Shown: piece by piece, positions 3,819 to 44,876 of the stretch | Numbering within the stretch: the stretch's first letter is position 1 | Layout of the letters: each line of letters begins with the position of its first letter | Assembly: GCA_029210965.1 (NCBI GenBank) | Contig: JARGFZ010000010.1 | Span: 1-45,225 of the forward strand | From: a bacterium | GTDB taxonomy: Bacteria; BMS3Abin14 | Direction: 5' to 3' | Length of the DNA stretch: 45,225 bases | Translations under genes and position numbers: made by a program | Notes under the pieces: model-generated | Database searches by the model: none | What the model was told of the DNA's origin: nothing | What the model saw: the letters and a program-made list of their open reading frames with translations, nothing else

Positions 3819-4392
3819 CTATATACAAAATAGGGAGCTCTTGACCGCTGGAGTTTTAATAAAGCAGCTTGAGTGAAAATCGAACTGCCAGGTGGAGATA
3901 AACGAACCGTGTCCCTCCAGCCGGGCACCACAACTTTTCAACGCCTCGGAAGCCCTTTCGCAGGCGTCATCTTCATCGTGGATAACCCTGAAACACCTGT
4001 TGATAGTAGACTCTAGCCCCGGTTCGAGGACCAGGATGCGCCCCCCTTCCTTCAGAACGCGCCGCGCCTGGATAAGGGCTTTTTCGGGGTTCGGATGATG
4101 GTGAAGGGACAAGGAAAAGACAACCGTATCGACGCTGTTGTCCGGCAGAGGGATGCTTTCACCAGAGCCGACAACCAGCTTGACCCCGTTTTCCAGAAGA
4201 TGCCGGGCTTTGTCGATGGAGGCGAGGTCCGGATCCAGACCCAGGATCCAGACCCAGGATCCTCACAGAGACACTTTGAAGCGTTTCTGTTAAGCGGCCA
4301 TCACCGCAGCCCACTTCAAGTACATTCCCGGCGGAGGGGTTGAGGATGTCACGGATGAATTTGTTTTCTATGTTTTCAGGGTCGCAAAGCAT
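3819..4392 (-). pseudogene. class I SAM methyltransferase broken by a 13-bp tandem duplication
   Basis: ATG 4392 with aaagga 6 bases upstream. The first frame gives NVLEVGCGDGRLTETL (motif I, SAM binding) and then runs out of frame at 4232-4257, where a 13-base unit is present twice. Taking out one copy restores a continuous protein of about 186 residues: VRILGLDPDLASIDKARHLL, an acidic PLPDNSVDTVVFSLSLHHH (motif IV) and VLKEGGRILVLEPG (motif V/VI), with the natural stop at 3819. The reading is therefore one gene disrupted by a single simple event. Its substrate cannot be told; it resembles small UbiE/Methyltransf_11 enzymes. As sequenced, only two partial frames (4159-4392 and 3819-4112) are open. 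Confidence 0.85.
4232..4257. repeat. 13-bp perfect tandem duplication inside the methyltransferase gene
   Basis: gatccagacccag occurs at 4232-4244 and again at 4245-4257, followed by the first five bases of a third unit (gatcc). Thirteen bases shift the frame by one; loss of one unit restores the methyltransferase. Confidence 0.95.
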
Positions 4393-4678
4393 GAAATTCC
4401 TTTAAGAATCCGCGAATCCAGAATCCAGAGGAAAGATCAGTGCGATGTGCGTGATATGAAAAATAGTTTGTCATTGCGAGGCCCGAAGGGCCGCGGCAAT
4501 CCCAAAGATCAAAAGCTAATTTACCACAGCGCGGCCGGCTGAAGGCCGCATCACAGGGTTACACGGAGGAGAACAATCCAGGACTTTGTCTAAGTCTAGA
4601 TTTTGTTTTACCCTGTGTCACCCTGTGTCACCCTGTGAACCCTGTGGTGAATTATTCTTTTTAAATCTGGAATTAACT
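4393..4678. repeat. intergenic palindromic and tandem repeats
   Basis: No gene seen. 4470-4510 holds a copy of the tcattgcgaggc...gcggcaatccc palindrome common in intergenic DNA of many anaerobic bacteria. 4610-4650 is a run of ccctgtgtca-like decamers (three to four units) that can pair with the gggttacacgg/cacagggtt stretch at 4550-4570. Confidence 0.65.
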
Positions 4679-41305: not shown

Positions 41306-41896
41306 ATGAGATACATAAGCATATTCCCGCAATATCCCGTCAGTATCCTCAAAATGGAGGAACTCAAAAGGTATCGCCAGAAGGTCATCAATGACCAGGT
41401 GACCGTTTCTTCTATCGTCAGGATGCTTAATAACCACTCTCCGATAATGAAGACCGTCAATGGGCACTACGTCAACAAGTCTTTCATTGTGGGGGTCCGA
41501 GACTACGATATCCCTGCTAACAGGCGTTCCAGCCAGGCCAAATATGAGAGGAGGAACCAGATAAACCTCTACGTTTCCATGGACCTGTCCACCATGGAGG
41601 AAGTTTCCGGGATCATATCAGTGCAGAAGATAGCGAGCACTGTGGAAGCCTGTATGGAAAGGGCTCTGGCGCCATGTGACCCAGGTCGGTTCATCGGTGT
41701 ACTGACAGACTGGAATACGACGGAAAAGCTGGACAACATGATAGATCCCCGCATCCAGAAGGAACTGGACGAGGCCAACCTGAGCCAGTCCTTCTTCGCT
41801 GTAAACAGGAACATGATTAAGAAGTTTTCCCTTGTCAGGGAAATGGGTGATGAATCAATTGAAAAGTTGATCCAGCCATCCGGCAAGGTAGGATAG
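41306..41896 (+). CDS. protein of unknown function
   Basis: 196 residues, ATG 41306; no clear ribosome site. Soluble, mixed alpha/beta, no signal or membrane segment. Notable stretches: MRYISIFPQYPVSILKMEEL, NHSPIMKTVNGHYVNKSFIV and INLYVSMDLSTMEEVSGIIS. Met- and Asn-rich for its size, unlike the neighbours. I recognise no family. It stands alone between two inverted-repeat regions. Its codon use and length support a real gene. Confidence 0.6.
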   Translation: MRYISIFPQYPVSILKMEELKRYRQKVINDQVTVSSIVRMLNNHSPIMKTVNGHYVNKSFIVGVRDYDIPANRRSSQAKYERRNQINLYVSMDLSTMEEVSGIISVQKIASTVEACMERALAPCDPGRFIGVLTDWNTTEKLDNMIDPRIQKELDEANLSQSFFAVNRNMIKKFSLVREMGDESIEKLIQPSGKVG

Positions 41897-41906
41897 GCTG
41901 GATGGA

Positions 41907-42001
41907 TGATCTCAAATCTCAGATCTCAAATTGAGTTAAACATCAACCACCAGGTAGTGGTTATGTCTGATCTGAGATCTGAAATCTGAGATGTGAGATT
42001 G
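41907..42001. repeat. long inverted gagatct repeat
   Basis: gatctcaaatctcagatctc (41908-41930) is inverted at 41970-42000 (tgatctgagatctgaaatct gagatgtgagatt). The central caaccaccaggtagtggtt (41945-41962) is itself a hairpin. Same family as 34602-34714. Confidence 0.7.
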
Positions 42002-42036
42002 ATTTTTCCCCGCAACGCGGGGGAAAATTACACCCC

Positions 42037-42249
42037 TCACGTCCCGCCATAGCCGACCTTGATCTTTTCGCCGTCGACGATGACCGGGACCTGCCGCTTG
42101 CCCCCAGTGACCTTTAGCATCTCGTCCAGTGAACCTGGATCTGCAAGGACATCCCTGTAGTCGACCGTTCGTCCCTCTCCCTCAAAGGCCTCACGGGCCT
42201 TCACGGTGTAGGGTCAGCTGAGTTTTCCATAAATGATGACTTTGCTCAT
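42037..42249 (-). CDS. selenocysteine-containing glutaredoxin-like protein (UXX-star type)
   Basis: ATG 42249 with ggagg 4-5 bases upstream, final TGA at 42037. Codon 12 (42216-42214) is TGA, and all other codons are open: MSKVIIYGKLS-U-PYTVKAREAF, then ADPGSLDEMLK and GKRQVPVIVDGEKI, ending KVGYGGT; 70 residues. The in-frame TGA falls exactly at the first active-site cysteine of the glutaredoxin fold (normally C-P-Y-C/T), followed by P-Y-T. The cis-Pro loop (QVPVIV) and the C-terminal Gly pair are kept. This matches a recognised group of tiny glutaredoxin-like selenoproteins. A perfect hairpin begins 12 bases after the TGA (SECIS candidate). Ordinary gene finders cut the gene at codon 12. 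It needs SelB, SelA, SelD and tRNA-Sec elsewhere in the genome. Confidence 0.88.
42185..42201 (-). promoter_or_regulatory. candidate bacterial SECIS hairpin of the selenoprotein mRNA
   Basis: On the minus strand aaggcc (42201-42196), loop cgtga, ggcctt (42190-42185): a perfect 6-bp stem whose loop is 19-23 bases after the UGA, with a GU in the loop. Position and form fit the SelB-binding hairpin of bacterial selenoprotein mRNAs, which lies within the coding region just after the UGA. Confidence 0.7.
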
Positions 42250-42289
42250 AAAACCTCCGTGAATAGTGAACTGTGAAAGGTTGATGGCT

Positions 42290-42535: not shown

Positions 42536-43075
42536 ATGCATCTAACAGTCATCCCGGAGAGATGCTCCGGGTGCAAGATCTGCGAGCTTGCCTGCAGCGT
42601 TGGACGTGAGGGGGCCAACAACCCCAAAAAGAGCCGTATGCGGGTCATGGTGCTGTATCCGCACCCTGTGATCCGCATGCCCATCGTCTGCAAGCAGTGC
42701 GGCGTGCCCAAGTGCGGGGAAGGATGTCCCACCAACGCCATTTACAAGGAAAACGGGGTCGTGCACCTTGACCAGGAGAAGTGCATCTCCTGCAACCAGT
42801 GCCTGACCAGTTGCCCCTTTGGCGCCATGTTCCTTCACGAGGACATTGAGCATCCTTTCAAATGCGACCTGTGTGACGGCGGCGAACCTCTATGTGTCCA
42901 GGCCTGTCCCAAGGAAGCGCTCAAGTTTCACCCCAAGCACATACTGGGTCAGGCCCATCGCCTTTCGGCGGCACACAGCTACGCCAAAATGAGCAAGGTG
43001 GAGTACATGGACGACGGCCAGAAGAAGACCCTCAAATACGCGAAGATCACGAAGGGCGGCAGCGATGACCGTTAA
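42536..43075 (+). CDS. four-cluster ferredoxin-like electron-transfer subunit of AOR
   Basis: 179 residues, ATG 42536 with ggaggt upstream. Four cysteine sets: C10-x2-C13-x2-C16-x3-C20; C52, C55, C60, C64; C83, C86, C89, C93-P; C110, C113, C120, C124-P: sixteen cysteines for four 4Fe-4S clusters, as in DmsB/HycB-type subunits. The gene overlaps the aldehyde ferredoxin oxidoreductase gene by 11 bases, so it is the natural electron acceptor of that enzyme, passing electrons from aldehyde oxidation to ferredoxin or a membrane partner. No signal peptide: cytoplasmic. Confidence 0.9.
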   Translation: MHLTVIPERCSGCKICELACSVGREGANNPKKSRMRVMVLYPHPVIRMPIVCKQCGVPKCGEGCPTNAIYKENGVVHLDQEKCISCNQCLTSCPFGAMFLHEDIEHPFKCDLCDGGEPLCVQACPKEALKFHPKHILGQAHRLSAAHSYAKMSKVEYMDDGQKKTLKYAKITKGGSDDR

Positions 43076-44876
43076 GGGGGGTTATTTTTTTAAGATCCTG
43101 GAAGTGGACCTCACGTCAGGGACGAGCGAGGTGCGCCCTTTCGACGAGGACTTTGCCCTCCAATACATCGGCGGACGCGGTTTCGGCGCCAGGATCCTTG
43201 CCGACCACCTCAAGGGAAGGAAAAAGAGGATCGATCCCCTGGGGCCGGACAACATCCTTATCATCGCCCCCGGTCCCCTCACCGGCGCTTACCTCCCGGC
43301 TTCGGGCAAGAACTCATTCATTACTATCTCGCCGGCGACGGGTATCTACGGTGATTCCAGCATCGGCGGGGTCTTCGGTGTGGAACTTCGCCAGGCCGGT
43401 TATGACGCTGTGGTGATCAAGGGCAAGGCCCCGGTGCTGTCTGCCCTGAGCATCCAGGACGATACGGTCAAGGTGATCCCCATACCTCATGCCGCAGGGG
43501 CTACCGCCCTGGAAGGCGAGCACATGGTCCGGGAAGCCACCGGCGATGAGGACATGAAGATCGCCTGCATTGGGCCGGCCGGAGAGAACGCTGTCGTCTA
43601 CGCCTGTGTCAACACAGACTGGAGCCGTAACGCGGGCCGGATCGGGATCGGCGCGGTCATGGGGTCCAAGAACCTCAAAGCTGTTGCTGTCAGAGGTTCC
43701 AGAGATCTTCCCATTTTCGACCTTCCAGGGTTGATGGAAGCCTCCGCCGAGGGGTACGCTCTGCTTAAGAGTCACGAATTCTTCAAGTTCTGGCAGGACC
43801 AGGGTCTCATGTCGGTGGTGGATTACGCCAACAAGATGGGGATCCTGCCCACCAGGAATTTCCAGGAAACGGTCTACGACAAGGCCGACCGGATGAACGG
43901 TTACATGATGGAGGACCGTTACAAAATCGGGGATTCGGCCTGTTTCGGGTGTTCCATGTCCTGCGGAAATGTATGTCTCGTCAAGGAAGGCAAGTACCGG
44001 GGTACCGTCACCGAGGGCCCGGAGTACGAGTCCGCGGCGATGCTCGGCAGCAACCTTGGTTCCTCCAACTTTGCCTATATCCTCAAGGCCAACGCCCTGT
44101 GCGATGAACTGGGAGTGGACACTATTTCCACCGGCTCCATCATCGGTGCTGTCATCGAAGGCCTGGAGAGAGGCTTTATCACCTCTGAAGATATAGATGG
44201 TATCGAGATCGAATGGGGGGACGAGGACTCCATCCTGGCACTTATCAACAAGATCGCCTTCAGGGATGGCGTAGGAAATACGCTTGCCGGCGGGGCCAGG
44301 GCCATAATCAGCCGCTGGCCTGAAATGGCCCGCGTCATCAATCACGTCAAGGGCCTGGAGCAGTCGGCCTATGACGCCCGCGGAGCCATCTCCATGGCCC
44401 TGGGGTACGGAACCTCAGATATTGGAGCTCATCACACCCGAGCCCTTACTGTCTTCAACGAACTGGAGACGGGCAACAACCTGGAGTTCGAGGACAAGAT
44501 CAACTTCCTGATCTACCACCAGACGGTGAGGCCCCTCTTTGACATGCTGGGAGTGTGCAGGCTTCCATGGATCGAACTCGGGTTCCCGGAGGAGTATTAC
44601 CAGCGGTTCTACAAGGCCATTACCGGCCAGGATCTGTCTATGGACGAACTGTTTGAAAGATCCAGACACATTTACGATCTTACTCGGGCCATCAATGTAA
44701 GCCTGGGCATCAGCCGCAAAGATGACTATCCTGCCCAGCGATCCTTCGAAGATCCGGTACCCTCAGGCCCCACAGCGGGTAAGGTCATCGACCGGGATGA
44801 TTATGAGAAGATCCTGGGGATGTATTATGAGAAGCGGGGATGGGATCAGGACGGCAAGCCGGAGCTAAAGCTCTAG
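43065..44876 (+). CDS. tungsten-type aldehyde:ferredoxin oxidoreductase
   Basis: 603 residues, ATG 43065, overlapping the ferredoxin gene by 11 bases. It oxidises aldehydes to carboxylic acids using a bis-pterin tungsten (or molybdenum) cofactor. The cluster ligands are C293, C296, C300 and C498 (CFGCSMSC and LGVCRLPW), nearly the numbering of the Pyrococcus furiosus enzyme (288, 291, 295, 494). IGGRGFGARIL and the pterin-binding GGVFGVELRQAGYDAVVIKG and ARGAISMALGYGTSDIGAHH are conserved. Full length (family about 600-620). Neighbouring genes for cofactor synthesis are not in the window. A role in aldehyde detoxification or carboxylate reduction in an anaerobe is likely. Confidence 0.93.
   Translation: MTVKGGYFFKILEVDLTSGTSEVRPFDEDFALQYIGGRGFGARILADHLKGRKKRIDPLGPDNILIIAPGPLTGAYLPASGKNSFITISPATGIYGDSSIGGVFGVELRQAGYDAVVIKGKAPVLSALSIQDDTVKVIPIPHAAGATALEGEHMVREATGDEDMKIACIGPAGENAVVYACVNTDWSRNAGRIGIGAVMGSKNLKAVAVRGSRDLPIFDLPGLMEASAEGYALLKSHEFFKFWQDQGLMSVVDYANKMGILPTRNFQETVYDKADRMNGYMMEDRYKIGDSACFGCSMSCGNVCLVKEGKYRGTVTEGPEYESAAMLGSNLGSSNFAYILKANALCDELGVDTISTGSIIGAVIEGLERGFITSEDIDGIEIEWGDEDSILALINKIAFRDGVGNTLAGGARAIISRWPEMARVINHVKGLEQSAYDARGAISMALGYGTSDIGAHHTRALTVFNELETGNNLEFEDKINFLIYHQTVRPLFDMLGVCRLPWIELGFPEEYYQRFYKAITGQDLSMDELFERSRHIYDLTRAINVSLGISRKDDYPAQRSFEDPVPSGPTAGKVIDRDDYEKILGMYYEKRGWDQDGKPELKL

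Follow-up and report, generated by a model that had tools for sequence, protein, structure and literature searches.

The locus examined here raises two questions: whether an in-frame TGA at the active-site position of a short glutaredoxin-like gene encodes selenocysteine (Sec), and where the protein made from that gene ends. The gene lies on the minus strand of the window, that is, the whole 45,225-nucleotide stretch of bacterial DNA that was analyzed. Its ATG (42247-42249) stands behind a Shine-Dalgarno sequence, GGAGG (42254-42258, minus strand), and relatives carry GGAG-like sites, so the open frame and ribosome site described in an earlier sequence-only reading are present. That reading had also taken TGA at codon 12 as a Sec codon; it ended the protein after 70 residues, at a second TGA, with a single Sec and no resolving residue. 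The frame instead continues for three more residues, giving 73 codons plus TAA (42028-42249). Based on comparisons with homologous genes, the most probable reading (probability of roughly 0.92) is that the product is a double selenoprotein with a glutaredoxin fold, 73 residues long and belonging to UXX-star family 1, in which UGA-12 would be decoded as Sec via a SECIS hairpin within the coding region and UGA-71 via a second SECIS hairpin past the stop codon. With both TGA codons read as Sec, the translated product is MSKVIIYGKLSUPYTVKAREAFEGEGRTVDYRDVLADPGSLDEMLKVTGGKRQVPVIVDGEKIKVGYGGTUGV*. This corrects a gene call that stop-codon-based annotation would truncate, as the sequence-only reading did.

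The family assignment comes from profile comparisons. The 70-residue version of the protein, with TGA read as Cys, scores 97.4 bits against the NCBIfam profile of UXX-star selenoprotein family 1 (NF041114; curated cut-off of 72), covering profile positions 1 to 67 of 70. In the whole-genome search, the match extends over profile positions 1 to 70 at 91.7 bits and reaches position 42031, so that the family profile aligns through both TGA codons, including the one previously taken as the end of the gene. The protein also matches the Pfam Glutaredoxin family (PF00462) at 45.3 bits, above the gathering score of 22.9, and codon 12 (42214-42216, minus strand), in the context GKLS-U-PYT, aligns with the active-site Cys of this family. 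The predicted fold is that of a glutaredoxin, with a mean pLDDT of 91; glutaredoxins head its PDB matches, and NrdH and Spx rank high as well.

Homologs were sought in two groups of genomes. NF041114 genes scoring over the cut-off were found in 10 of 12 genomes from the window's phylum, all of which belong to one family and which include the window's own genome among the carriers. A homolog with 52% identity was identified on a spirochaete contig, and 10 members were found over the cut-off in 393 genomes of that spirochaete's phylum. Each of these genes carries two TGA codons. Across the resulting set of 20 members, positions 12 and 71 are always TGA and never Cys; both belong to the 23 invariant columns, which also include P13-Y14-T15, V54-P55, and G68-G69. 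The same search also retrieved more distant glutaredoxins, of the YruB type, in which the first position is occupied by Cys and TGA is absent. The conservation of TGA at codon 12 in every member indicates that this codon is neither a chance occurrence nor a sequencing error. Because the genome is a draft in 157 contigs and sequencing errors can produce a TGA where Cys is expected, the gene might otherwise be taken for a pseudogene or its TGA for a misread TGC or TGT; given that both TGA codons are shared by 20 genomes from two groups and that the protein is otherwise conserved, this explanation is vanishingly unlikely.

The full Sec machinery is present in the genome. Profile searches identified SelA (602 bits; cut-off of 268), SelB (352 bits; cut-off of 242), and SelD (353 bits; cut-off of 125), the last with one in-frame TGA, and a tRNA-Sec was found at 73 bits, with the anticodon TCA according to ARAGORN. 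The selD gene (contig C53, locus L012, 1501-2430) is itself a selenoprotein gene, with the TGA in KAAG-U-AAK, and provides a positive control for the use of Sec within this genome. Together with the invariant UGA and the matching SECIS, these findings strongly support the earlier proposal that codon 12 of this glutaredoxin-like protein, in its UxxT motif, specifies Sec. The three objections named with that proposal (a genome lacking Sec machinery, homologs with neither C nor U at the position, and a sequencing error) were each resolved in favor of Sec.

The second TGA (codon 71; 42037-42039, minus strand) could nevertheless be an ordinary stop, with UGA-12 as the only Sec codon. The resulting 70-residue product would keep the glutaredoxin core, and termination is always in competition with Sec insertion. 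For E. coli fdhF, recoding was measured at 30 to 40% (PMC4513850); at such a rate per UGA, efficient hairpins would be needed for more than a modest yield of full-length protein. Against termination at UGA-71 stand the codons downstream of it, which read GGN-GTN-stop in 19 of the 20 members and GGN-ATT-stop in the remaining one, with G, C, T, and A all occurring at the third positions. Silent variation of this kind is characteristic of sequence that is translated, and it argues strongly against the second TGA as the usual end of the protein. In the window, these codons are GGG GTG TAA, giving the C terminus GYGGT-U-G-V and a true stop codon at 42028-42030; the arrangement, with the second Sec two residues ahead of the stop (GGTUGV-TAA), is the same in all 20 members, among which the stop codon itself varies (TGA in 11, TAA in 6, and TAG in 3). 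The published family entry also counts two Sec residues (PMC13188914), and a covarying SECIS lies at the right distance beyond UGA-71. A protein that normally ends at residue 70 is therefore very unlikely. The family name reads naturally in the same terms, as Sec, two residues, and a stop codon (UXX-star); this is our own reading of the name, and the sequences agree with it.

Bacterial SECIS elements have been modeled as a stem of 4 to 16 bp and a loop of 3 to 9 nt, with G in the first two loop positions and the loop 16 to 37 nt from the UGA (PMC13188914). Both hairpins at this locus, and those of nearly all relatives, satisfy this model. SECIS 1 (42183-42203, minus strand) is located inside the coding region and carries the loop CGUGA from +18 nt after UGA-12, with a folding z of about -2 to -2.5. 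It corresponds to the hairpin that the sequence-only reading had placed 12 bases downstream of codon 12: the stem, with 6 perfect pairs (8 with G-U), starts 10 to 12 nt after the TGA. Every one of the 20 members has its loop at +18 or +19, and loops containing AGG occur in most of the spirochaetes. Compensatory changes in the stem are few (GGCC/GGCC to ATGCC/GGCAT or AAGCC/GGCTT), and covariation lends SECIS 1, whose sequence is nearly constant, moderate to modest support, for which coding constraint partly accounts.

The second and stronger hairpin, SECIS 2 (42002-42028, minus strand), had been overlooked along with U71. Starting on the final base of the stop codon, it has an apical stem, CCCCGC/GCGGGG, and a loop, GUU, from +20 nt after the second UGA. 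The observed score of 19.1 compares with a mean of 6.5 for dinucleotide shuffles. To control for hairpins being picked by score, 249 stops of long open reading frames from the same loci were evaluated; scores of at least 15 were reached by 3% of these, compared with 19 of the 20 family members. The arms of the stem covary, with 16 different 5' arms in the 20 genes: a gene's own arms are 98% paired, compared with 58% when arms are mixed between genes, and the hairpin of one member (G062s) contains one mismatch. Being situated just 3' of the gene and G+C-rich in most members, this hairpin could also be regarded as an intrinsic terminator. However, neither the window (AAAAATCAAT) nor the relatives, with at most 4 T in 8 nt, have a T-run after it, and the stem varies in sequence with no loss of the loop G or of the distance to UGA, so that a role as a terminator is highly improbable. 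The hairpin is thus a probable bacterial SECIS wholly 3' of the stop codon, and it adds comparative RNA evidence for the family's second Sec. Rfam searches of the locus returned chance matches only, below the gathering scores, and across the whole window nothing rose above threshold save a tRNA-Arg.

In 11 of the 20 members, the stop codon six bases past the Sec codon is itself UGA (the window's own stop is TAA). These genes suggest a mechanism in which SelB would discriminate between UGA codons by distance: a UGA followed by a loop after 16 to 25 nt would be recoded, and the stop codon six bases farther on, with the loop at about 7 to 16 nt, would be too close to the hairpin and would terminate translation, whether or not it is a UGA. 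Two of the members that stop at UGA (G009 and G010) have the loop 15 nt past that codon, near the model's lower limit, and distance is therefore perhaps not the whole story. The family offers a natural test of how SelB separates a UGA for Sec from one that serves as the stop six bases off. On such a mechanism, selenium supply could set the ratio of the 70-residue to the 73-residue product.

The chemistry of the protein can be considered along similar lines. The window's protein contains no Cys, and consequently U12 and U71 are, apart from Met, its only sulfur- or selenium-bearing side chains. In glutaredoxins, the residues that follow the Gly-Gly motif lie close to the active site, and it is thus plausible that U71 can meet U12. 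Far from lacking a resolving residue, as had been claimed, the protein has in U71 an obvious candidate partner for U12. By homology, U12, at the start of the first helix (U-P-Y-T), and U71, just after Gly-Gly, may act together through their two selenium atoms, as a redox couple or as a clamp for a metal or metalloid. A diselenide/selenol redox couple and a metal clamp are the two candidate chemistries, and binding of metal or substrate has been proposed for UXX-star proteins (PMC13188914). The combined proposal, that position alone reads UGA in two ways within nine bases and that the two Sec residues make a cysteine-free diselenide or metal-binding center in a minimal glutaredoxin, is put forward tentatively, as possible rather than probable. 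A glutaredoxin fold with two Sec residues and no cysteine would also be a compact system for studying the chemistry of selenium in diselenides or in metal binding.

The gene is flanked on one side by two divergent neighbors, a 4Fe-4S ferredoxin-like subunit (42536-43075, plus strand; Pfam Fer4 families) and an aldehyde ferredoxin oxidoreductase family protein (43065-44876, plus strand; PF01314 and PF02730). A link to this aldehyde oxidoreductase operon had been suggested. The adjacency stands in the close relatives: all 9 same-family relatives that carry the UXX-star gene have the oxidoreductase next to it, as the window does. The functional tie does not, since the operon is absent from all 10 spirochaete loci, of which five share TrkA/TrkH genes and four of those five also share an acyl-CoA dehydrogenase. 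The association was therefore judged to be lineage synteny and is weak evidence at best on function. On the other side lies a convergent gene for a 196-residue protein (41306-41896, plus strand) that yielded no Pfam or NCBIfam match and is recognized by synteny in close relatives; it is found beside the UXX-star gene in at least five relatives, with 53 to 64% identity over most of its length. Between the two genes, an imperfect inverted repeat with 23-nt arms (ATCTCAAATCTCAGATCTCAAAT and its complement) occupies positions 41909-41999, and similar short-unit repeats adjoin the UXX-star gene in relatives G006 and G007. In relative G006, moreover, the C-terminal half of the gene is present a second time, as a truncated copy (L036, 1501-1596) next to a run of N; this copy ends in GGTUGV with a TGA stop and could be either an assembly artifact or a true duplicate.

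Ten further frames that read through TGA in the window were scanned, and no other selenoprotein was found. One of the candidates, a methyltransferase-like frame (3819-4400, minus strand), turned out to be an ordinary gene, with the TGA in its downstream piece attributable to chance. It is broken by a frameshift that stems from the tandem duplication of 13 bases (CCTGGGTCTGGAT, present twice around 4230-4260).

Among known systems, the closest is UXX-star family 1 itself, which appears in Table 1 of a 2026 review as "Distant Grx-like protein 1 (UXX-star selenoprotein family 1)," with the motif UxxT and 2 Sec (PMC13188914). The window's protein resembles the members of this family (NF041114) in size, in the UxxT motif of the first Sec, in the C-terminal Sec-x-x-stop, and in the number of Sec residues. 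Nothing excludes membership, and the public relatives of the window's lineage are unclassified metagenome-assembled bacteria. The gene is most likely a genuine double selenoprotein gene, a further member of a family already described. The profiles of UXX-star families 2 and 3 are related, and the matches to them are weaker, falling below the cut-offs (48.8 bits versus 100 for NF041211 and 56.8 bits versus 97 for NF047338). The profile of glutaredoxin 3 (GRX_bact, TIGR02181) also remains below its cut-off (33 bits versus 90). With classical glutaredoxins and selenoglutaredoxins, such as those described by this profile and the Clostridium oremlandii Grx, the window's protein shares the thioredoxin-like glutaredoxin fold, the active-site position, the Pro loop, and the Gly-Gly motif. 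It differs from them in carrying UxxT rather than C/UxxC and in ending directly after GG-T-U-G-V, without their last helix. Finally, bacterial SECIS elements of the E. coli fdhF type are typically located within coding regions (PMC13188914), whereas SECIS 2 is located beyond the stop codon. This second SECIS, together with UGA as Sec and UGA as stop six bases apart in 11 relatives, is what the locus usefully adds to the picture of the family.
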